NCBI GenBank assembly: GCA_903895005.1
Contig: CAITSH010000094.1
Location: forward strand, 1 to 15,784
Direction: 5' to 3'
Origin: an uncultured Pseudomonadota bacterium
GTDB lineage: Bacteria > Pseudomonadota > Gammaproteobacteria > Burkholderiales > SG8-39
Length of the DNA stretch: 15,784 bases
Within the stretch, counting starts at the first letter, position 1. Every line of letters starts with the position of its first letter. Position numbers and translations under genes: made by a program. Below, one piece after another: positions 2,735-15,784 of this stretch. The notes beneath the pieces are model-generated. The model was not told the origin of the DNA. It saw only the letters and a program-made list of their open reading frames with translations, and searched no databases.

Positions 2735-3766
2735 TTATTCGTAGTAATTATTGGTGGCTCGCGCGAACGCCTCGTAGAGCGGCGGCAGGCTGATCCCGCG
2801 CTTTGCCATCAGGGGATGCCGTGCGTAGACCAGATACTGCCGTGGCATCACCTGCGGGATGTCTTTCGGCGTCACACCGCCGGAGAGCACCTGGATCGCC
2901 ATGCGGGCGGCGACCTCGCCCTGCTCAAAGCCTGAGGCCCCGAGGGCGAACATGCCCCCATCCTCGACCATGAAGCCGCCAATACCCACCACCGGCACCG
3001 GCGAATTGGCCTCGGTCCAGTTCATGAGATCGGCCGGGGCGACCAATTTTTTCATCGCTGCGGTCTCATAGACGTTGCGGTAGTTGGACACCAGAATCAA
3101 GTCAGCCTTGCCCTTCGCGCCAAGGACCGCCTTTTTCCATTCGTCAAAGCTGCCGGTTGCCACAGAGTCGACGATCCTGAAAGGCGCCCATTCGAATGCT
3201 TCGATCGCGTTGGAATCGGTCAACACCGAGTCGGAACGGTCACCCAGTTGCATGACCCGGCGGCCAAGCGGCACGCCGCCGGCCAGACGCATATCGAGCA
3301 GCGCCGTGCGCAGGTCCGTGAGCGGCTTTCTCTCATAGATGCCGGTCACATTGCCGGCCTTGCCGTAGCCGTACGCCTGCACCGAGCCGTTGATACCGGC
3401 AAATATGATCGAAATACCCGGCTTGCCGGCGAACGCCTGGGCGGCATAGAGCTGTGCGTCGTCGTCCACGGCAATGATCAGCGCCGGGTTGAGTGACTCG
3501 ATGGCCCGTCGTGCTATCGCGCCGGCGTTTTGCTTGAACTGCTTTTCCGGATGGTTCTTGGTGTCCATGTAGTGCCAATGCACCTTGTATCCGAGCTTCG
3601 CATCGAGCGACCGCTTGAGGCCGGAGTCAATATCGCGCGTCCAGGAATAATCGCGCGAATAGCTGTGCAGCACCAGGATGCGCGGCTGGCTCAACTTGAA
3701 CCAGGTGGCGCCTACGAGGGCAAGCCCCAGAAAGACCCAGATCAGGATGATTTTCAGCTTGCGCAT
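2735..3766 (-). CDS. Periplasmic ABC-type substrate-binding protein (ABC_sub_bind-like)
   Basis: A 343-residue protein that starts with a hydrophobic segment (about residues 6-22 after MRKLK) and no lipobox Cys, so it is exported or anchored facing the periplasm. The mature part opens with ILVLHSYSRDYSWTRDIDSG, the first strand and loop typical of ABC_sub_bind family periplasmic proteins and of related sensor modules. Later segments such as PALIIAVDDDAQ, GISIIFAGI and VPVVGIGGF show the alternating strand-helix pattern of a two-lobed binding protein. I chose the ATG at 3766 because it overlaps the permease stop in a TGATG, a common translational coupling arrangement; an upstream TTG at 3790 is possible but weaker. 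No ABC permease or ATPase gene is nearby. The protein may therefore serve the coupled permease or the ligand-gated channel as a sensor. The ligand cannot be read from sequence. Confidence 0.75.
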   Translation of the reverse strand: MRKLKIILIWVFLGLALVGATWFKLSQPRILVLHSYSRDYSWTRDIDSGLKRSLDAKLGYKVHWHYMDTKNHPEKQFKQNAGAIARRAIESLNPALIIAVDDDAQLYAAQAFAGKPGISIIFAGINGSVQAYGYGKAGNVTGIYERKPLTDLRTALLDMRLAGGVPLGRRVMQLGDRSDSVLTDSNAIEAFEWAPFRIVDSVATGSFDEWKKAVLGAKGKADLILVSNYRNVYETAAMKKLVAPADLMNWTEANSPVPVVGIGGFMVEDGGMFALGASGFEQGEVAARMAIQVLSGGVTPKDIPQVMPRQYLVYARHPLMAKRGISLPPLYEAFARATNNYYE

Positions 3767-5610
3767 CACATCAGCCCCATCCAGGACCAAAGGGGGATGC
3801 TGGCATATACGCCCGCCAGCCGGACCAGATTCATGAACAGGTTGAACTTCAGGAACGCGCTCTCGTCATACACGCCTTTTTCCCGAAGCGCGTCCCTGAA
3901 CTGCTGGTAGTGCGGACACTGGTAGGGGAGCAGCCACAAGTCACCCAGCAGCAGCAGGATAAAGCCGATCACCCAGGCATGGATGCCGGCATGACTGGCA
4001 AGGGGCATGAAAATCGTCGCGCACAGCGCGATCGTGGCCGTGTTGGGAATCGCGGTGCGCAGCACCATCACGACAACGAACAGGATCGCAACAAAAGAAT
4101 TGAAGTCGGTGCGCATCACCTCGCTGAGAAAAACCAGGTGCCCGCTGATCCACTTGTCGAGGCCAAAATAAGCGAAAAGGTTGAGGATGCCGACAAGGCT
4201 CCCGAGGTAAATCAGCGAAGGCCAGTCGGTTTTTTCGCGAAACTCGTTTTTTCGCAGCAAGCCGAATAAAAGCAGCGCGTAGAGAATGGCCATTCCAAGC
4301 CAGGATGGCGGGACATTGTGCATGGACGTGGTAACCACGCCGAGGGCAAAAACCAGCACGCCGGCAATCGCCGCCCACTCCCTTGTCTTTATGCGGCCAA
4401 GCAGCGAGAGCTGGACTTCAACCTGCGCCTTGGAGATATGGCTCTCCTCTTTGTTCGGGAACGCCACGGCAATGGCAAGAAAATAAAGGATCAGCATCGA
4501 CGCCGCTGCGGCGGCGGAGGCAAGCGTCCAATAAAGCCATTGAAAATGCTCCTGCTGCTGCGGCTGGAGTAGTCCGAATATTACAAAGTTGACCGAACGG
4601 CTGGTCATGAAACAGGCGGAAAGCAGTGTCGCCCCGGTGAAGGCGGCGACTGCAAGCCGGGTTGCCGCCTTGCCGCGCAGTTCAAATTTCACCGTCTCCA
4701 CCATATCGATCAGGAACGGTGCCACCAGCACCGCGCGCGCGTTGATTGAGGGAACGATGGGGGTGAGCAGCATGCCGGTGAGCATCAAACCCAGGTTATG
4801 CCCGCTGGCGGTGTTGGGCAGGTAACGAAGCAGCCACAGCAGGAAACGAAAAGAAAGACCGGACAGCACCACGACCGTACCCAGCCCGAGGATGCTCAAG
4901 GCCATGAAAAACCCCTCGGAGGAGAAACCGGCAAGAATGATTTGTGTCGGCGCCAGGCCGAGAGCCAGCGTGGCCATCAGCGCAAACAGCCCCGGAATGA
5001 ACTCGTCGACCAGTTCGAACACCCACATCACCGCCGTGGCCGTAAAGATGGCGAGGAACACCGTGGCCTCGCGGCCAAGCCCCAGATCACTGCCAAAGGC
5101 CAGCACCAGCAGCGGCATGACAATGGCGGCAAACCAACCGACCGCGTGCACCGCGTCCAAACCGCGGCGTGGCAGCGCACGGGGCGCCGCAATCCTTTGT
5201 CGAATGCGCTCACCGCCAAAATTGGCGAGCAAGGAAAAATAAAACTGCGCCTGGTGGCCCGGGTTGTATTGGTTGAGCCCGGCAAGGCTCGCCCTGGGGA
5301 TGGCGAAGGCCACCACGTCGGTCAGCGCAACCGCTTGCGACAGGTAATGCGGCACCTCGGTTGCAGCCTCCTCGCCAAACCGCGTCGATTCAACCGCGAT
5401 CTTCTTCCCGCCGGGCGTCACCAGTTCGACGCTGCCCTCGTGCAGCAGATACAGAAATTTCGCATCCGCATCGGCAAGATAGATGGTCTCGCCCGCCTTG
5501 AATCGCCGTTCCTGCACGTTGCGCAAGATACGCGCGAGGCTCTCGTTGAGGCTGCGCGAAATGATCGGGTCCGAGGTCAGCCTTTGGGCGGCGCGTAAGC
5601 TTTCGGACAT
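3766..5610 (-). CDS. Cyclic nucleotide-binding domain fused to SLC13/ion-transporter-superfamily permease
   Basis: A 614-residue fusion. Residues about 33-130 form a cyclic-nucleotide-binding (CAP-like) beta-roll: RRFKAGETIYLADADAKFLY, LLHEGSVELV and RFGEEAATEV (77-86). In this family the phosphate is held by a Glu in FGE and an Arg a few residues later. FGE is present at 78-80, but the aligned Arg position reads Gln92 (LSQAVAL), so cAMP or cGMP binding is uncertain. Residues about 153-612 are a polytopic membrane domain with around 10-12 hydrophobic spans and two PNTA turns (LPNTASG at 264, IPNTATI at 521). This resembles the divalent anion:sodium symporter (SLC13) branch of the ion transporter superfamily, where such turns line the substrate and ion sites. 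The substrate is probably an anion such as a dicarboxylate or sulfate, by inference. It starts at ATG 5610 without a strong ribosome binding site and ends in a TGATG overlap with the binding-protein gene. Confidence 0.75.
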   Translation of the reverse strand: MSESLRAAQRLTSDPIISRSLNESLARILRNVQERRFKAGETIYLADADAKFLYLLHEGSVELVTPGGKKIAVESTRFGEEAATEVPHYLSQAVALTDVVAFAIPRASLAGLNQYNPGHQAQFYFSLLANFGGERIRQRIAAPRALPRRGLDAVHAVGWFAAIVMPLLVLAFGSDLGLGREATVFLAIFTATAVMWVFELVDEFIPGLFALMATLALGLAPTQIILAGFSSEGFFMALSILGLGTVVVLSGLSFRFLLWLLRYLPNTASGHNLGLMLTGMLLTPIVPSINARAVLVAPFLIDMVETVKFELRGKAATRLAVAAFTGATLLSACFMTSRSVNFVIFGLLQPQQQEHFQWLYWTLASAAAAASMLILYFLAIAVAFPNKEESHISKAQVEVQLSLLGRIKTREWAAIAGVLVFALGVVTTSMHNVPPSWLGMAILYALLLFGLLRKNEFREKTDWPSLIYLGSLVGILNLFAYFGLDKWISGHLVFLSEVMRTDFNSFVAILFVVVMVLRTAIPNTATIALCATIFMPLASHAGIHAWVIGFILLLLGDLWLLPYQCPHYQQFRDALREKGVYDESAFLKFNLFMNLVRLAGVYASIPLWSWMGLM

Positions 5611-8341: not shown

Positions 8342-8462
8342 ACCATCGCCCCCGGGCAAAAAATACGGGGCGCGACAACACCCGCTCCATGCGCTGCCCG
8401 CGACCACTGGGCCGGCGATTCACTGAAAATCAAAACAACACCTTAGACGAAGGAGATGGGCG
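8342..8462 (+). other. Spacer between lipase and phospholipase-like genes
   Basis: A GC hairpin (CGCCCC at 8347-8352 with GGGGCG at 8367-8372, 14-nt A-rich loop) sits just after the lipase stop without a T tract. AAGGAG at about 8450-8455 serves the next gene. Cotranscription of both genes is plausible. Confidence 0.35.
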
Positions 8463-9650
8463 ATGTGCAAGCAATGGCGGATGGCGGTACTGTTTGTTTT
8501 GGCCACAAGTTGGCAGACGGCGCAGGCATTCAACGACTACGAGCACAGCGAAATCGGGGATGCCGCGTTTGCTAGCGCGATCGCGGGTCTGGAACAAGCG
8601 GCCCCCGGAAGCGCGGCCAAACTCTTTGCCACCCCGCATCTGTCCAGTGTGACCCCGGCTGCCGGAAAGCGCGCCGAACCGATCTGCGCCGTCGCTGGCG
8701 GAAAAGACCTTGTCTGCTTCTCCTTCGGCGACCTGGTCGCCATTTACGGCGACTTCGCCGAGACCTTTGCGGAGGTGAACAACCCCGCAATTGTCCAACG
8801 GGCGGCAACGCTGAAAGAAATCGTGGGGGGGCGCAGGCACTACACGGCGTTTGCCAGCGAAAAAAAGCACGTGATGGAACTCGCCGCGCACAACGCCACC
8901 CACTTCTCCATGGGCGCCGCGCAGGCCTACGTGCAATGGCACGGACAGGCGCTCACCCTCGCGGCGCAGCCGGGCCGGCTCTGGGAGGCGCTGCACTACG
9001 AGGCGCTCGCACTGCACAGCCTGACCGATCTCTTCGCGCTCGGTCATATGCTCGAAGACCGTGAACGGACCGACCAACTGGTCAAATGGGCGCGCAAAAA
9101 CAACACGGCGTTGTCGGCCGCCGTTGCCAAGGGTGGCAGCAGCGCCATGGGCGGGCTGGTGAACTTCTACCACAACGCATTCAATTTCCGGGGCGCAATG
9201 GTGAAGAACCTCGCCGGGGAATCCTGGCGCGCTTACGGCGACGGGAAGTACCGGATCGTGGATGCCGCCTGCGCCCGCAAGAGTTATATCGAGAGGCGCG
9301 CCTGCGTTGATGTGGCCACAAAGGCGCAGCGCGACATCATCGTCAACGCTGCGGCGAAAAGCCTGTCCGGCGTCCTTGCCCGGGCAACCGGCAAGTCGCT
9401 TCCCGCCGGCACGGAGTACGCGGCGCTGGCCCATGTGCCGATCGAATTCAAGGACACCCAGGAACCCTTGCACCCCGAGCATCAAATTCCCCAGATCGCC
9501 CGGCTGGCCATCGCGATGAAGAGCCAGGGGCGTCCGATTCAGGACCACGGATTCGATTTCAGCCTCGGCTACCTGAAGTACGCACCGGGCGTCGTAGGGG
9601 GGGTTGTCGAATACGCCGGTTTCGTGAAGCAGCATTGCTGCAGCAAGTGA
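8463..9650 (+). CDS. Secreted zinc-dependent phospholipase C-like protein
   Basis: A 395-residue protein with a signal peptide (cleavage likely after AQA, residue 22) and AAGGAG 7 nt before the ATG. The mature protein carries an ordered set of candidate metal ligands typical of zinc-dependent phospholipase C/P1-like folds: His28 near the new N-terminus (YEHSEIGD), Asp90/Asp97 in FGDLVAIYGD, His143/His147 in AAHNATHF, and His178, His185, Asp189 and His195 in HYEALALHSLTDLFALGHM. FYHNAFNFRG and WRAYGDG (234-261) also recur in this family, by memory. Such enzymes use a three-zinc site to cleave the phosphodiester of phospholipids. The C-terminus ends in a Cys-Cys pair; four more Cys (75, 85, 270, 281) could form disulfides, which fits a periplasmic or secreted protein. 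It follows the lipase gene by 121 bp. Activity on lipid rather than another phosphodiester is inferred. Confidence 0.7.
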   Translation: MCKQWRMAVLFVLATSWQTAQAFNDYEHSEIGDAAFASAIAGLEQAAPGSAAKLFATPHLSSVTPAAGKRAEPICAVAGGKDLVCFSFGDLVAIYGDFAETFAEVNNPAIVQRAATLKEIVGGRRHYTAFASEKKHVMELAAHNATHFSMGAAQAYVQWHGQALTLAAQPGRLWEALHYEALALHSLTDLFALGHMLEDRERTDQLVKWARKNNTALSAAVAKGGSSAMGGLVNFYHNAFNFRGAMVKNLAGESWRAYGDGKYRIVDAACARKSYIERRACVDVATKAQRDIIVNAAAKSLSGVLARATGKSLPAGTEYAALAHVPIEFKDTQEPLHPEHQIPQIARLAIAMKSQGRPIQDHGFDFSLGYLKYAPGVVGGVVEYAGFVKQHCCSK

Positions 9651-9685
9651 ACTCACCCTTGGCATTGCCAGGATCGGCTTGCATG

Positions 9686-9727
9686 CCATGGACAATGGAC
9701 AACGAGCAATGAGCAATGGGCAATGGA
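9686..9727. repeat. Six-unit heptamer array (CAATGRR)
   Basis: The units in order are CCATGGA, CAATGGA, CAACGAG, CAATGAG, CAATGGG and CAATGGA, in exact 7-bp register. The array starts 36 bp after the phospholipase-like stop and is non-coding. A 7-bp period is not a multiple of 3, so it is not a coding repeat. Confidence 0.7.
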
Positions 9728-9779
9728 CTAGTGGCTGAAGCCAGGGATGTGGGATGCGGTTTTCCGCATGGAGGGTCCT

Positions 9780-10001
9780 ATGAAACCCACCTTGCGCCAA
9801 ACCTGCGCGAAACACCACGCGCTGCCGCCACGGCTCAGGGGCTCAAAGACAGTCCTGTACCAGGAAAACACCGTGTGGCTGACATGGCATAAGGCCGCAA
9901 AGCCGCGCCAGACGGTCGTTCCCAGCCGATCGGCCGGGAAAAGCCCGGATCGCAACAACGATCCGGGCGTGGTGCGGCAGCCCCTGAAGGCGGGCCTTTA
10001 A
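9780..10001 (+). CDS. Possible small basic protein, unknown
   Basis: A 73-codon frame (MKPTLRQTC... to ...QPLKAGL) with GGAGGG (9770-9775) 4 nt before the ATG. By my count 57 of 73 codons end in G or C, which is coding-like for this genome. The product is rich in Lys and Arg, has no signal or membrane segment, and matches no family I recognise. The 3' third contains a perfect 10-bp inverted repeat, so the DNA may matter as RNA structure rather than protein. It could be a real small gene, a decayed gene, or a leader RNA of the phytochrome operon. No function is assigned. Confidence 0.35.
   Translation: MKPTLRQTCAKHHALPPRLRGSKTVLYQENTVWLTWHKAAKPRQTVVPSRSAGKSPDRNNDPGVVRQPLKAGL
9929..9968 (+). 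other. Two mutually exclusive hairpins
   Basis: GCCCGGATCG (9943-9952) and CGATCCGGGC (9959-9968) form a perfect 10-bp stem with loop CAACAA. The left arm can instead pair upstream with CCGGG (9934-9938, loop AAAAG), extended by GATC on each side across a small bulge. Alternative pairing of one arm is the layout seen in attenuators, but no T run follows. Confidence 0.45.
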
Positions 10002-10220: not shown

Positions 10221-11708
10221 ATGCCTGCCGCCGATTTGAACGCCCTCCAGCAGTGTGAGAAAGAACCCCTCGCCAACTCCGGCTTGATCCAGCCCAATGG
10301 CGTCCTGCTCTACATCGACAAGTCGAGCCTTGAAATCCGTTACGCCAGCGAAAATACCGCCAGCCTCCTCGGAGAAGGGCCGGAAGAGTTACTCGGCCTT
10401 GACGGCAAGGACTGGCTTGAGCAAAACCTTCCGGCGCTTGTGTCGTGGCCGGCCAGCGCCGGCCGGCGGATGCACTTCCCCGCCTCCGTGGATATGGGGC
10501 ACGGAGAACTCGACGTCCTGATCTCGGGAACCAGCGCCGGCTGGTTGGTCGAGTTCGAGGCCTCTCAGCAGGTAAGCGTTGATCTGGGCAGCATCCGTAT
10601 CCAGGCACCTTCCGGAATGCTCGACGCCACCGGGCTGCAAGTGCTCCGTAACAGCCTGGTTGAGGCGGTGGCCCGCACCACGGGCTATGACCGCGTGATG
10701 CTTTACCAATTTCATCCGGACTGGTCCGGCGAAGTGCTGGCGGAGGCCGCCAAACCCGGACGCGGCTCTTATCTTGGCCTGCGCTTTCCGGCAACAGACA
10801 TACCCGCGATCGCCCGCAATCTGTATGCCCAGACCCCCTATCGTCACATACCAGATTCCTCCGCCGCTCCGGTGCCGATCAAATGCCCCGCCGGCTCCGG
10901 CACAGCGCTTGACCTGACCTGGTCAGATCTTCGCTCCGCATCCCCCGTTCATATGCAGTATCTGGCCAACATGCGGGTGCTGTCCTCCTTCTCCACATCG
11001 ATCATGATGGACGGCAAGCTGTGGGGGCTCATAGCCTGTCACGACGACACAGCCAAGGTCATTCCGCTTGCGGCACGCGAACACTGCAAGAGCCTCGCGG
11101 CGGATTTCGTGAAGGTACTCTCCGATTATCGTAATTCCGTTCAACGCGACCTCTATGCGGCTGCGGTAGAAGTGGTGACGCCTGTCCGGGGTTTAATCTC
11201 GGGCAATGCCGACATCGCCAGCGCCATCAGTTCACAGTTGCCCAAGATCGCGGCCCTTACCGGCTCGACCTCGGCCGCTTTATTCGTTGGCGAATCGGAG
11301 AAATCCTGGGGACCGGGTCCGGTTGATGAAGAGTTGCGCTCCATCCACAACTGGTGCCTGAAGAACCAGGCAGATCAGCTGTTCTGGATGGACGACCTGC
11401 CTGCAAAAATGGGGCTCTCCACAAGCCTTCCACTGAGCTGCGGCATGCTCGGGTTGAGCATGCGCGCGAAACAACTGAACAACGCACTGGTCAATATTTA
11501 CCTGTTCCGTCCGGAAGAGGCGGGCGAAATCGCATGGGCCGGCAACCCCAACAAACCCGTCGAGCAGGCGGCGGACGGCCAGAGCCTGTCGCCGCGCAGC
11601 TCCTTTGAAAAATGGGTGGAAGTGCGCAACGGCCACTCCAGGGCGTGGGAAGACGATGCCCGTTTTGCGGGGCAACAACTTCGCGAACTACTGACCACCT
11701 GCCTCTGA
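10221..11708 (+). CDS. bphP: Bacteriophytochrome photosensory core (PAS-GAF-PHY) without output domain
   Basis: A 495-residue soluble red/far-red photoreceptor. The N-terminal PAS domain (about 1-115) begins with QQCEKEPLANSGLIQPNG. Cys12 is at the position of the biliverdin-attaching Cys of bacteriophytochromes, though the usual IQPHG reads IQPNG. The GAF domain (about 130-310) keeps LYQFHPDWSGEV, the RFPATDIP motif with Asp193, SPVHMQYL with His244, and ACHDD with His274, the residues that surround the chromophore. The PHY domain (about 320-490) keeps the tongue motif PRSSFEKW (458-465). The protein ends within 35 residues of that motif, where typical bacteriophytochromes continue into a histidine kinase. 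Output must therefore act in trans, most simply on the hybrid kinase that starts 22 bp downstream. The start has AAAGGGAAG 7 nt upstream. No heme oxygenase gene, which would supply biliverdin, lies in the window. Confidence 0.9.
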   Translation: MPAADLNALQQCEKEPLANSGLIQPNGVLLYIDKSSLEIRYASENTASLLGEGPEELLGLDGKDWLEQNLPALVSWPASAGRRMHFPASVDMGHGELDVLISGTSAGWLVEFEASQQVSVDLGSIRIQAPSGMLDATGLQVLRNSLVEAVARTTGYDRVMLYQFHPDWSGEVLAEAAKPGRGSYLGLRFPATDIPAIARNLYAQTPYRHIPDSSAAPVPIKCPAGSGTALDLTWSDLRSASPVHMQYLANMRVLSSFSTSIMMDGKLWGLIACHDDTAKVIPLAAREHCKSLAADFVKVLSDYRNSVQRDLYAAAVEVVTPVRGLISGNADIASAISSQLPKIAALTGSTSAALFVGESEKSWGPGPVDEELRSIHNWCLKNQADQLFWMDDLPAKMGLSTSLPLSCGMLGLSMRAKQLNNALVNIYLFRPEEAGEIAWAGNPNKPVEQAADGQSLSPRSSFEKWVEVRNGHSRAWEDDARFAGQQLRELLTTCL

Positions 11709-11730
11709 TATCCCATCAGGCGATTAATGA

Positions 11731-14700
11731 ATGAGCAACAACATCGATCAGGACGTCCTCCGCCGCGCTCTCCAGGCCCAATTCGGCACGGTCGTGTGCT
11801 ACCGCACCGTCATCTCGACGGATAACACGGAGGAGGTTCTGTCTGGTGATTGCGATACGCTGACTGGCCACCCTGCTAGCGCATTTTCGGGCTCCGGTGG
11901 CCGCCGAATCGAGCAGCTTGTATTCCCCGGAGACGCCGCCCGCGTGCGCCGCGAGCGCGAGTTGCAATTAAAGAAGACCGGGGAATACAGCGTCCAGTAT
12001 CGTTTGGTGCGTCCCGATGGGGGTACCTCTTGGGTGCGCGACGTAGGCACCCAAAATACGGGCGCTACCGGAAGCGTCGTGCGCGAAGGCGTGCTTGCAG
12101 ACATCACAGCCCAGCGTGATATGAACCAGCGCGCAGGCCGACTCGAGCTGGAACTTGAAAATTCCAGGGCGCTGCTCAACGGCATCAGCGATGGGACCGA
12201 TACCCACCTGATGGTCCTGGAAGGCGATGCGACAATATTCCTCGTCAACCGATCATGGCTCGAATACGACGCCGGTCGCGGATTACCCGGATCAACAAGA
12301 GACTATTGGGTCGGCCGCAACCTGCTCGACCTGATCGAAACCAGCGGCGACCCCGCGCTCGGAGGCGCCGATCTGGCATCGTCGGTGCGCGATATCCAGG
12401 CGGCGGCACGCAATGCCGCCCGGGTAACCGCGGTCGTGCCACTGCAGTGGGAAACACATTATTTTGTCATCACCGCCACGCGACTTCATGGCGACTTCAA
12501 TGGTGTTCTCCTGGTGCGCCAGAATGTAACCGACCTCAAGCGCGCCGAACTGGCCGTGATCGAGCAACAGACGTTTCTGCAATCGATCCTGGATTCATCG
12601 AAACACTTGGGCGTGGTCGGCATCAACCGTGAACACCGGGTTGCCTTGTTCAACCCTGCGGCAGGAGGCATCTTCGGTGCAATGCCGGGCGATGTTATCG
12701 GGCGCCCGCTTGAAGTGCTGGAGGACTTTCTCCCGACCGGATCAACCTGGCGACGCGAAGTGAACCAGGCTCTCGAGACCGGCAAGGACGCGCTGTTCGA
12801 GAGCGGGGATTTCCCGGCCACGCCGGAAAAATTCTACGAGAACCGTGTCACCCAGGTGCGGGCCCCGGAGGGCACAGCCCTCGGCAGCGTGATGCTGCTG
12901 CGCGACATCACCGACGAGCGCGCCTACGCAACGCGCATGCAGAAAATAAACGAGGAACTCGAACAACGCGTGCTTACACGTACAAAAGAGCTCGAAATAG
13001 CCAAAGACCAGGCTGAGGAAGCCAGCCGCGCCAAGTCGACGTTCCTCTCCAACATGAGCCATGAGATCCGCACCCCCATGAATGCGGTGATCGGAATGAC
13101 CGATCTGGCTCTTGAGACATCGCTGGACCAGCATCAGATGAAACTTCTGCGTTCAGTATCCTCGTCCGCCAAGTCACTCCTGTCCCTCCTTAACAACATC
13201 CTCGACGTCTCCAAACTCGAGTCGGGGAAAATGGAAGTGGAGAAAATTCCGTTCAGCATCTCCGGCTTGATTACCGAAGTCGGGGACATGATGGGCGTCA
13301 CCGCGCGCCGCAAGGGGCTGAAGATTGAAGTCCGACTGGCAGAGGACGTCCCCGCGGTCCTCCTTGGCGATCCGACAAAGCTGCGCCAGATCCTCGTCAA
13401 TCTGATCGGCAATGCCATCAAGTTCACCGAAAAAGGCGGACTGACACTCCAGGTCAAGCGCGCTGAAGCGGCTGACAAGTATCACTTTTCAGTGATCGAT
13501 ACCGGCATCGGCATTCCGCAGTCTGCGATTTCAAAAATTTTCGAGCGTTTTTCACAAGCGGATGAGTCGACAACGCGGCGCTTTGGCGGTACGGGACTGG
13601 GCACCGCCATTTGCAAAGGACTCGTCGAGGAGATGGGGGGGCGTATCTGGGTCGAGAGTGTCGACGGGGTGGGAAGCAACTTCCAGTTCACGATATCAAT
13701 GCCCGTTGCCACGGGCGTGGACGAAGCACAATTCCTGAAGGACACGCTTCGCCAAAGCGGTCGCTGGACGCGCCCCCTCGAAATCCTCTACGCCGAGGAT
13801 ATCGAGCTCAACCAGCAACTTGTCGAAATGCGCATGAGCCAGCGCAAACACCGCGTGCACATCGCCGAGAACGGCCGCGCGGCCGTCGATATGTACCTGA
13901 AAGGAAAATACGACATTATCCTGATGGATGCCCATATGCCGGTCATGAACGGACTGGATGCGATTCGGGAAATTCGCCGCCTTGAGCAAAATACCGGGGC
14001 ACACATTCCGATCATCATGCTCACTGCAAGCGTGCTGGAGAGCGATCGCGCAATATGCCTTGCCGCGGGGGCTGATGATTTCGCATGGAAGCCGGTCGAG
14101 TTTGATCTGCTATATAACAAGATTGCGAATTTCTTCGAATCCTTCGCGCACGGCACGACAGTCCTTGAAAAAACAAACCTCGAGCTTGAGAAAGGCGAAT
14201 ACCGCTTCCTTGATATACAAAAAGGACTCGAGGTATGGGGCGACGCGGGGGTACTTCGTCGCGCATTGAAGAAAATGGGCAATGACTACGGTGACGTCGC
14301 GCTAAAAACAACAGGTTTTTGTCGTGAAGGAAATTGGAACGCCGCGAAGGAATTACTTCACGCGTTCAAGGGTGCCGCCGGGAACCTGGGCATCCGGGAA
14401 CTGCCCGAACTTGCGAGCTCATTAGAGCTCGAAATAAAAGCCGGCGGCCCAGCCAGCCAGACACTTCTTGACGAACTGTCGTCGAAAGTAGCGGTGCTGC
14501 TTCAGGACCTGAGGCAGTTGGAAAGCCCGGCCGAGCCGGCGCAGGCCGTCCCCGCCGGGCTGGATTTGGAATCCGTTACTGCGTTGCTGCGCGGGCTCAT
14601 TGATGAACTTGGCAGGGATGAGATCAACGATGAGACCATCTCCCATCTGCGCCACCACCTGGGCGAGGAGCGTTTCGCACCGGTCGAGAACCAACTTGAA

Positions 14701-14991
14701 TCGTTTGAGTTGATGCGCGCCGCCGAGGCGGCAACGGCGCTTCTCGCATCCCTGGTGTCCCCCGCCCCCCCGGCGCCCGCAGCCAGCGCAGAAGTCGCAC
14801 CCCTTTTGAAAAAAATCATCCTTGGTCTTGAGGCATCCGACATCGACGACGAGGCAGTCGAGGCGTTGCGTTTGCTAATTGATCAGCAAAGCTATTCAAG
14901 GCTGGAGACAGCGCTTGATTCCTTTGAGTTCAAGGAGGGTATTGCCATCGCAAATGCAATGCTGGACCAATTCGGAGCCCCCAATGAGTGA
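11731..14991 (+). CDS. Triple-PAS hybrid histidine kinase (PAS3-HisKA-HATPase-REC-HPt) with duplicated C-terminal module
   Basis: A 1086-residue cytosolic sensor kinase with no membrane span. Order: PAS (about 15-130, with RPDGGTSWVRDVG), PAS (148-272), PAS (278-398), a helical linker (400-430), and HisKA with phospho-accepting His444 in SHEIRTPMN. The ATPase domain follows, with N box Asn561, DTGIGI from Asp590, and GGTGLGTAI at 619-627, where the third box has Thr for the usual Leu. The receiver has Glu689/Asp690, phospho-acceptor Asp733, Thr765 and Lys787. The HPt domain has His877 in HAFKGAAGNLG. A C-terminal tail carries two similar ~60-residue modules (946-1008 and 1021-1081). The full relay His-Asp-His is thus in one chain and can pass phosphate to the response regulator encoded next. 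It starts 22 bp after the phytochrome stop with only a weak ribosome binding site, and its end overlaps the next gene by 8 bp. Light input through the upstream phytochrome is inferred. Confidence 0.9.
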   Translation: MSNNIDQDVLRRALQAQFGTVVCYRTVISTDNTEEVLSGDCDTLTGHPASAFSGSGGRRIEQLVFPGDAARVRRERELQLKKTGEYSVQYRLVRPDGGTSWVRDVGTQNTGATGSVVREGVLADITAQRDMNQRAGRLELELENSRALLNGISDGTDTHLMVLEGDATIFLVNRSWLEYDAGRGLPGSTRDYWVGRNLLDLIETSGDPALGGADLASSVRDIQAAARNAARVTAVVPLQWETHYFVITATRLHGDFNGVLLVRQNVTDLKRAELAVIEQQTFLQSILDSSKHLGVVGINREHRVALFNPAAGGIFGAMPGDVIGRPLEVLEDFLPTGSTWRREVNQALETGKDALFESGDFPATPEKFYENRVTQVRAPEGTALGSVMLLRDITDERAYATRMQKINEELEQRVLTRTKELEIAKDQAEEASRAKSTFLSNMSHEIRTPMNAVIGMTDLALETSLDQHQMKLLRSVSSSAKSLLSLLNNILDVSKLESGKMEVEKIPFSISGLITEVGDMMGVTARRKGLKIEVRLAEDVPAVLLGDPTKLRQILVNLIGNAIKFTEKGGLTLQVKRAEAADKYHFSVIDTGIGIPQSAISKIFERFSQADESTTRRFGGTGLGTAICKGLVEEMGGRIWVESVDGVGSNFQFTISMPVATGVDEAQFLKDTLRQSGRWTRPLEILYAEDIELNQQLVEMRMSQRKHRVHIAENGRAAVDMYLKGKYDIILMDAHMPVMNGLDAIREIRRLEQNTGAHIPIIMLTASVLESDRAICLAAGADDFAWKPVEFDLLYNKIANFFESFAHGTTVLEKTNLELEKGEYRFLDIQKGLEVWGDAGVLRRALKKMGNDYGDVALKTTGFCREGNWNAAKELLHAFKGAAGNLGIRELPELASSLELEIKAGGPASQTLLDELSSKVAVLLQDLRQLESPAEPAQAVPAGLDLESVTALLRGLIDELGRDEINDETISHLRHHLGEERFAPVENQLESFELMRAAEAATALLASLVSPAPPAPAASAEVAPLLKKIILGLEASDIDDEAVEALRLLIDQQSYSRLETALDSFEFKEGIAIANAMLDQFGAPNE

Positions 14992-15784
14992 TACCCAGCG
15001 GTTTAAGATCCTGGTAGTTGATGACGAACCGGCGAATCTCAACCTGATGCGCCAGATCCTCAAGAACCAGTACGACCTCTCTTTTGCGAAGTCAGGTCTG
15101 GATGCGTTAGCCAATCTGCAAAAACAAACCCCCGACCTCATCCTGCTTGACGTAATGATGCCGGGCATGGATGGCTATGAGGTCTGTCATAAGATCAAGT
15201 CCGACCCCAGATTCAGCGCAATCCCGGTTATCTTCTGCACCGCCATGTCGGAGGAAGGGGACGAAGTAAAGGGATTCAAGCTGGGCGCGGCCGACTACGT
15301 GACCAAACCTGTGCGCCCTACGGTGGTATTGGCCCGCGTCAGCGCCCACCTTGCGCTTGCAGACCAGCACCGCGCGACCCGCACGCAAGTTCGTATTGCG
15401 AACAAGGATCTGATAGATTCGCGTCTGAAGACCCTTTTGATGCTTGGCAAGGCCGCCGAGTTCAAGGACAACGACACCGGACTGCATGTTGTTCGCATGT
15501 CCAAGTACTCCCACATGTTGGCCGTCGCCAGCGGCTGGAACGAGGAGTCCTGCGAAGTGCTGCTTAATGCGGCGCCCATGCACGATATCGGAAAGATTGC
15601 CACTCCCGACAATATTCTCAAAAAACCCGGACCGCTCGATCCCGATGAGATGGCCGTAATGCGCTTGCACTGCGAAGCGGGGGCTCAAATCATTGGCGAG
15701 GCACAGTCCGATACGCCACTGTTCAAGATGGCACAGGAGATCGCCCTCAGCCACCATGAAAAATGGGACGGCAGCGGCTACCCG
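14984..15784 (+). CDS. Response regulator, REC-HD-GYP (cyclic-di-GMP phosphodiesterase), 3' truncated by window
   Basis: The ATG at 14984 lies inside the end of the kinase gene (ATGAGTGA, 8-bp overlap, a sign of translational coupling), and the frame stays open to the window end, giving 267 residues. The receiver domain (about 7-120) has Asp13/Asp14, phospho-acceptor Asp56 in LLDVMMPGMDG, Thr86 and Lys108. The HD-GYP domain (from about 145) shows the conserved order: GLHVVRMSKYS with His168, HDIGKIATP with the HD pair at 200-201, His229, the HH pair at 257-258, and the GYP triplet at 265-267, which is cut by the window edge. Such RpfG-like proteins hydrolyse cyclic-di-GMP to GMP or pGpG when the receiver is phosphorylated. 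The metal ligands visible so far are intact, so activity is likely. It is the natural output of the upstream kinase. Confidence 0.9.
   Translation, partial: MSDTQRFKILVVDDEPANLNLMRQILKNQYDLSFAKSGLDALANLQKQTPDLILLDVMMPGMDGYEVCHKIKSDPRFSAIPVIFCTAMSEEGDEVKGFKLGAADYVTKPVRPTVVLARVSAHLALADQHRATRTQVRIANKDLIDSRLKTLLMLGKAAEFKDNDTGLHVVRMSKYSHMLAVASGWNEESCEVLLNAAPMHDIGKIATPDNILKKPGPLDPDEMAVMRLHCEAGAQIIGEAQSDTPLFKMAQEIALSHHEKWDGSGYP

Follow-up and report, generated by a model that had tools for sequence, protein, structure and literature searches.

A stretch of 15,784 nucleotides from an uncultured Pseudomonadota bacterium (contig CAITSH010000094.1; "the window" below means this whole stretch) was analysed for the three consecutive genes at its end, which encode a bacteriophytochrome, a hybrid histidine kinase and a REC-HD-GYP response regulator. 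The first gene (10221-11708, + strand) encodes a stand-alone bacteriophytochrome of 495 amino acids with PAS_2, GAF and PHY domains and without an output domain. A gap of 22 base pairs (bp) follows (11709-11730, +), in which no terminator-like site was found on the + strand, and leads to the kinase gene (11731-14991, +; 1086 amino acids). The third gene (14984-15784, +), read from the ATG at 14984, encodes the REC-HD-GYP protein, of which 267 amino acids are present before the window ends. It overlaps the kinase gene by 8 bp (14984-14991). A recheck of the open reading frames (ORFs) confirmed the coordinates, the spacing and the overlap that a sequence-only reading of the window had given. The domain calls of that reading (PAS-GAF-PHY, three-PAS hybrid kinase, REC-HD-GYP) were upheld by Pfam, and for one PAS domain by an AlphaFold2 (AF2) model. 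A promoter scan of the window returned no sigma-70-like site, where 2.3 were expected by chance, and terminator-like sites in the window were not more numerous than chance.

The three domains of the phytochrome all scored above the Pfam cut-off: PAS_2 at 10254-10562 (+, residues 12-114), GAF at 10650-11054 (+, residues 144-278) and PHY at 11199-11696 (+, residues 327-492, covering profile positions 13-175 of 183). Cys12 (10254-10256, +), which we take to be the expected biliverdin-binding cysteine as in known bacteriophytochromes, was invariant in 39 aligned relatives. The same was true of Asp193, His244, His274, Arg459 and Ser461, presumably pocket residues by their roles in known phytochromes. 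The PAS-GAF-PHY order, the N-terminal cysteine and the pocket residues that mark a bacteriophytochrome photosensory core are all present. The AF2 model also gave a complete photosensory core, with a mean predicted local distance difference test score (pLDDT) of 87.8. Its best Foldseek match in the PDB was 6ptq_A, with a template modelling score (TM) of 0.78 within a range of about 0.65-0.81, and the nearest solved structures by sequence were bacteriophytochrome cores (best 6.8e-67). The chain stops 33 residues past the PRxSF motif; the sequence-only reading was right that it ends just past PHY. Against the NCBIfam BphP equivalog NF041576 the protein scored 206 bits, far from the cut-off of 1040, and it has no kinase on the same chain. 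As judged from these sequence features, the phytochrome is a complete biliverdin-type photosensor without an effector.

The kinase, whose domains are all read from the + strand, begins with three PAS domains. PAS 1 (11791-12102, residues 21-124) and PAS 3 (12607-12906, residues 293-392) were found both by Pfam and in the AF2 model. PAS 2 (12199-12525, residues 157-265) has no Pfam match and was placed by the PAS-like order of strands and helices in the model. The following HisKA domain (13030-13227; Pfam and alignment) carries His444 at 13060-13062, and is succeeded by HATPase_c (13366-13701; Pfam). An internal receiver (13783-14124; Pfam Response_reg and alignment) contains Asp733 at 13927-13929. 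An Hpt domain (14302-14496, residues 858-922; Pfam and alignment), absent from the description in the sequence-only reading, contains His877 at 14359-14361. In total, Pfam recognised PAS_3, PAS_4, HisKA, HATPase_c, Response_reg and Hpt, that is, two of the three PAS domains. His444, Asp733 and His877 were invariant in 28 kinases, and the protein has the make-up of a hybrid phosphorelay kinase. The AF2 model of the kinase (mean pLDDT 78, predicted TM score 0.34) is readable for single domains. PAS 1 was the least conserved PAS domain, with a mean identity to the window of 0.48 vs 0.58 and 0.59 for the other two, and the linker between PAS 2 and PAS 3 (residues 266-292) was as conserved as HisKA (mean identity 0.81 each). 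From its sequence, this linker might be a contact site, which we regard as a weak lead. Past Hpt, the C-terminus (residues 946-1081; 14566-14973) shows two similar-looking helical stretches in the AF2 model, 946-1009 and 1019-1081, and just 12 of the 27 aligned relatives extend over the latter.

In the third gene, Pfam matched Response_reg and HD_5. The receiver Asp56 lies at 15149-15151 and the HD region starts at 15476; relatives are 340-361 amino acids long. HD and HHExxDGxGYP-type motifs, with roles as in known HD-GYP proteins, can be followed as far as the end of the window, are conserved among relatives and mark the protein as a member of the HD-GYP group. By these motifs, the third gene probably encodes a cyclic-di-GMP-degrading enzyme.

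Gene order was then compared among the close relatives of the phytochrome, which form a single clade in the tree described below. Ten clade loci had a readable flank (L001-L008, L140 and L058, in which the phytochrome is cut by the contig end). A PAS-HK-REC-Hpt kinase was the next gene downstream of the phytochrome in all ten, and a REC-HD-GYP gene followed the kinase in nine. The spacing in L058, 20 bp and then an 8-bp overlap, is nearly that of the window. The closest genome-collection relative, L041 (83% over 273 residues), is uninformative on neighbours because its contig stops inside the phytochrome. It belongs to a metagenome-assembled genome titled Bordetella parapertussis, and its gene content indicates that the label may be wrong. 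A heme oxygenase, which would probably supply the biliverdin, is found no more than three genes away in only 3/10 clade loci (L005, L006 and L058). Pfam confirmed the enzyme in L005 and L058, as well as in L014 and L017 outside these ten, and in L006 as part of a longer ORF. Because L058, the locus closest in spacing, has its heme oxygenase right after the HD-GYP gene, one may also sit just beyond position 15784 here.

The co-occurrence of the two proteins was examined by whole-genome searches of 210 genomes of the clade's order, in which three kinase candidates were scored per genome. The intact clade phytochrome was found at E<=3e-134 in 9/210 genomes, the next matches being a broken copy at 3e-102 and then one at 1e-79. 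The kinase was found at E<=1e-150 in 8/210 genomes, all of which fall within the nine with an intact phytochrome, and no kinase ortholog was found at this cut-off in any of the 201 genomes without one. The genome with the broken copy (G009, Thiocystis violacea) likewise gave no kinase match at E<=1e-150, and at its locus (L009) no kinase lies beside the phytochrome in the roughly 1 kb up to the contig end. Pairwise distances of phytochrome and kinase were closely correlated (10 pairs, r 0.988), with 0/5000 permutations as high, and those of phytochrome and HD-GYP protein gave r 0.907 (9 pairs). Among metagenome relatives of the first 430 kinase residues, 24 lay at E<=7e-75 before a drop to 3e-16. 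For 8 of these 24 close kinase clusters, the longest contig was exactly as long as that of a phytochrome cluster, suggesting that the two lie on the same contigs. The expectation that the phytochrome-kinase pair is conserved was thus borne out, both in the ten clade loci and in the eight metagenome clusters. Among 93 listed relatives of the same 430 residues, for which chains to about 1900 amino acids were eligible, no PHY domain appeared in the precomputed Pfam annotation, that is, no fused phytochrome-kinase. Candidate contact positions were also sought: 15 positions of the alignment are conserved across 22 rows of the clade and uncommon in 12 other rows, with five intermediate rows excluded, and they are used for no claim.

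We propose, at a probability of roughly two in three, that the three genes form one light-signalling unit, in which the phytochrome would act in trans on the hybrid kinase and the relay would run on to the HD-GYP protein. On the sequence side, the gene split, the complete photosensor, the intact relay residues, the gene order and the co-inheritance are all present. The usual account of phytochrome signalling is that torque travels along an unbroken helix out of PHY to the attached output. Since the chain stops at PHY, this route into an attached kinase is unavailable. The phytochrome would most likely dock on the three-PAS region of the kinase or on the helices that join PAS to HisKA, and such physical contact would place the kinase under light control, with the red/far-red state of the phytochrome setting its activity. 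Phosphate would pass from His444 to Asp733, to His877 and finally to Asp56 of the REC-HD-GYP protein. This order of phosphotransfer is what we infer from the relay residues, and phosphorylation of Asp56 would then change cyclic-di-GMP breakdown.

Several observations weigh against this proposal. The predicted TM score of 0.34 leaves the overall domain arrangement of the kinase unreadable, and its PAS domains could sense a signal of their own. In L001 the REC-HD-GYP gene is missing from its place, which is taken by an opposite-strand GGDEF-EAL gene. The genome of L001 (G001, the ninth with an intact phytochrome) fell outside the kinase cut-off of 1e-150 although a kinase adjoins its phytochrome, and plain co-inheritance of an operon could also yield the distance correlation. 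Heme oxygenase was not recognised in the window, nor within three genes in L002, L003, L007 and L008. Moreover, not every member of the wider family has a partner beside it. In a genome collection scanned with a single genome for each species, 346 relatives were found and the 80 best (L001-L080) retained; by length, 75 of these are stand-alone and five fused. The 80 were picked by likeness to the stand-alone set, and this share is uninformative on phytochromes at large. When neighbours were defined as directly adjacent, on the same strand and within 300 bp, 21 of the 75 stand-alone loci had no signalling gene beside the phytochrome.

The main alternative is that the genes share an output and sense independently: the PAS domains of the kinase would detect a signal of their own, and the phytochrome would act on another protein, for example the REC-HD-GYP protein. 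Operon membership by itself is no proof of contact, and the low conservation of PAS 1 and the arrangement in L011 and L013, where the phytochrome stands between an upstream CheB-CheR-PAS-GGDEF-EAL gene and a downstream hybrid kinase, fit this alternative. However, the lack of any kinase ortholog at E<=1e-150 in the 201 genomes without an intact clade phytochrome is more in keeping with obligate partners than with a shared output, and L001 keeps the kinase though its REC-HD-GYP gene is missing. We consider independent sensing unlikely.

A second alternative concerns the phytochrome itself, which could be the remnant of a fused phytochrome-kinase after loss of the output, now a decoy or losing its function. 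A homologue search over about 5.8 billion proteins gave 1160 matches, with chains to about 866 amino acids eligible. Of the 120 homologues listed, 116 were 485-540 amino acids long and the other four were pieces of 337-412; none carried a kinase, GGDEF or EAL domain, and one (P0084) lists PF01255. The possibility that the phytochrome is a truncation unique to one genome was thereby set aside, as it belongs to a family of near-equal length. A tree of 106 photosensory cores was built by maximum likelihood (quick search, unrooted, branch support by the Shimodaira-Hasegawa-like approximate likelihood ratio test, SH-aLRT); nine partial matches were excluded and identical sequences entered once. A branch with support 100 parts 87 stand-alone from 19 fused phytochromes, and the clade of the window, ten members with the window, forms one group, also with support 100. 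The stand-alone side covers Pseudomonadota, Nitrospirota, Campylobacterota and Bdellovibrionota. Two cases look like decay. The broken copy in Thiocystis violacea (L009/L141, genome G009) is an ORF of 332 amino acids whose match is interrupted by two in-frame stops, and L079, counted among the 19 fused phytochromes, is a 605-amino-acid ORF with a tail of 122 residues, and the ORF after it holds a kinase fragment. On the other hand, the narrow length range, the invariant chromophore-pocket residues and the position of the stand-alone members on one side of a fully supported branch over four phyla, not as scattered truncations, make decay of the window's phytochrome very improbable.

A sequencing or assembly error, with one chain divided by a false stop at 11706-11708, has no point in its favour and a negligible probability: the starts of the three genes are 0, 1 and 2 modulo 3, so they lie in three different frames that no single stop error can join, the family has the same length, and relatives keep the same gene boundaries.

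In the wider stand-alone group the neighbours are diverse. By the rule given above, a window-type kinase adjoins the phytochrome in 9/75 stand-alone loci, and the commonest partner, in 34/75, is a CheR-containing GGDEF/EAL protein (CheB-CheR-PAS-GGDEF-EAL). The remaining neighbours are fragmentary GGDEF/EAL proteins (three loci), a CheB-CheR-kinase (one), a CheB-CheR protein without output (one) and another kinase (two); four loci are cut by contig ends. L025 and L036, which are among the 21 loci without a partner, have CheB-CheR and GGDEF/EAL ORFs farther upstream, two or three ORFs away. Pfam confirmed CheB-CheR-PAS-GGDEF-EAL in L017, L031 and L046, and CheB-CheR-PAS-GAF-HK-REC in L038. Heme oxygenase matches lie within three genes in 36/75 stand-alone loci. 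The operon view of the sequence-only reading holds in that the pair recurs; what it saw was one instance of this wider group, where a CheB-CheR-PAS-GGDEF-EAL neighbour is commoner.

Further features of these loci were recorded. The CheB-CheR-PAS-GGDEF-EAL genes (L017, L031, L046 and 31 other loci) often overlap the phytochrome gene by 4 or 8 bp, and a heme oxygenase often lies on the phytochrome's other side. L011 (2394-12036) and L013 (5435-14888), the two loci with the phytochrome between such a gene and a hybrid kinase, are from Paramagnetospirillum, and in L011 a REC-HD-GYP gene follows. A second set of stand-alone phytochromes in Chromatiaceae, 524-539 amino acids long, has no adjacent same-strand signalling gene (L047, L049, L050, L051, L055, L056, L066, L069, L070 and L073); in L049, L050, L070 and L073 the opposite strand carries a REC-GGDEF gene close by.

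As a control for the CheB-CheR partner class, 300 genomes belonging to the same order as an Azonexus genome were searched. A stand-alone phytochrome was found at E<=1e-65 in 3/300, and the best CheB-CheR-PAS-GGDEF-EAL match adjoins it in all three (58-100% identity; in G346 the match covers residues 184-1484). Eight more genomes had a full-length CheB-CheR-PAS-GGDEF-EAL match at 34-45% identity and no such phytochrome, indicating that this protein family also works without a stand-alone phytochrome. An exclusive partnership was thereby ruled out for this class. In four of the eight, neighbours were run through Pfam: L142 has a solute-binding protein, L147 a DUF455 protein, L144 a PAS-GGDEF-EAL protein and L145 a queuosine enzyme, and no stand-alone sensor is common to them. 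PAS is common to both partner classes, and is too general to count as a shared docking domain.

The locus was compared with known systems. Canonical bacteriophytochrome kinases (DrBphP, Agp1, PaBphP and SaBphP, from the PDB matches) are alike in PAS-GAF-PHY, pocket residues, tongue and phosphorelay kinase output. Their kinase is on the same chain, whereas the window has separate genes and a kinase with three PAS domains, REC and Hpt of its own. As described in PMC6899989, RpBphP1 of Rhodopseudomonas palustris passes its signal on through light-dependent contact with another protein, PpsR2, as is proposed here. There the C-terminal PAS9 and HOS make the contact and the partner is a gene repressor, whereas the window protein ends at PHY and its proposed partner is a kinase. 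Short LOV proteins such as PpSB1 are likewise photosensors without an attached effector and are presumed to signal in trans; they are blue-light flavin sensors, and the available text of PMC6798134 names no partner gene and describes phytochromes only with attached effectors. Photoactive yellow protein genes likewise encode single-module photosensors and are predicted to share operons with genes for HisKA/HATPase or GGDEF/EAL proteins. The chromophore and fold are different, and PMC12826048 describes no pyp operon that contains a phytochrome gene. According to PMC6848086, the putative RtBphP1 operon of Ramlibacter brings together a phytochrome, a heme oxygenase, a hybrid kinase and a response regulator, but RtBphP1 has a histidine kinase domain on its own chain, unlike the window phytochrome. 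PadC and BphG (PMC9587094, PMC8846402) tie red light to cyclic-di-GMP turnover, as is proposed here; their GGDEF/EAL domains are fused to the photosensor, whereas the window HD-GYP protein would be reached, if at all, via two further proteins. No stand-alone phytochrome paired with a kinase was found in open-licence PMC papers, which is weak evidence of absence.

Elsewhere in the window, the minus strand at 3766-5610 encodes a 614-amino-acid anion symporter of the DASS/SLC13 type with an N-terminal cyclic-nucleotide-binding domain (residues 34-112), an unusual fusion. Long ORFs overlap on opposite strands at 8430-9818 (-) and 8463-9650 (+); neither has a Pfam match, and the minus-strand ORF has no NCBIfam match.

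For the family as a whole, we favour by a narrow margin over doubt the view that output-less "short phytochromes" are an old and widespread class in several phyla, which regained no effector and signals only in trans. Their partners would depend on the lineage: a hybrid phosphorelay kinase with an HD-GYP protein in the clade of the window, CheB-CheR-PAS-GGDEF-EAL in many alpha-, beta- and gammaproteobacteria, and a CheB-CheR-kinase in a few. The short phytochrome would then serve as a movable light-sensing subunit, fitted to one or another PAS-containing regulator of cyclic-di-GMP. Coupling would have to work in some other way than by torque if the photosensor stops at PHY and has a dedicated partner, and with the two on separate chains it can be tested by mixing, titrating and swapping. 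If the proposed unit is real, it would be a ready-made two-part red-light switch, and would let light feed into the control of cyclic-di-GMP in purple sulfur bacteria and relatives of these.

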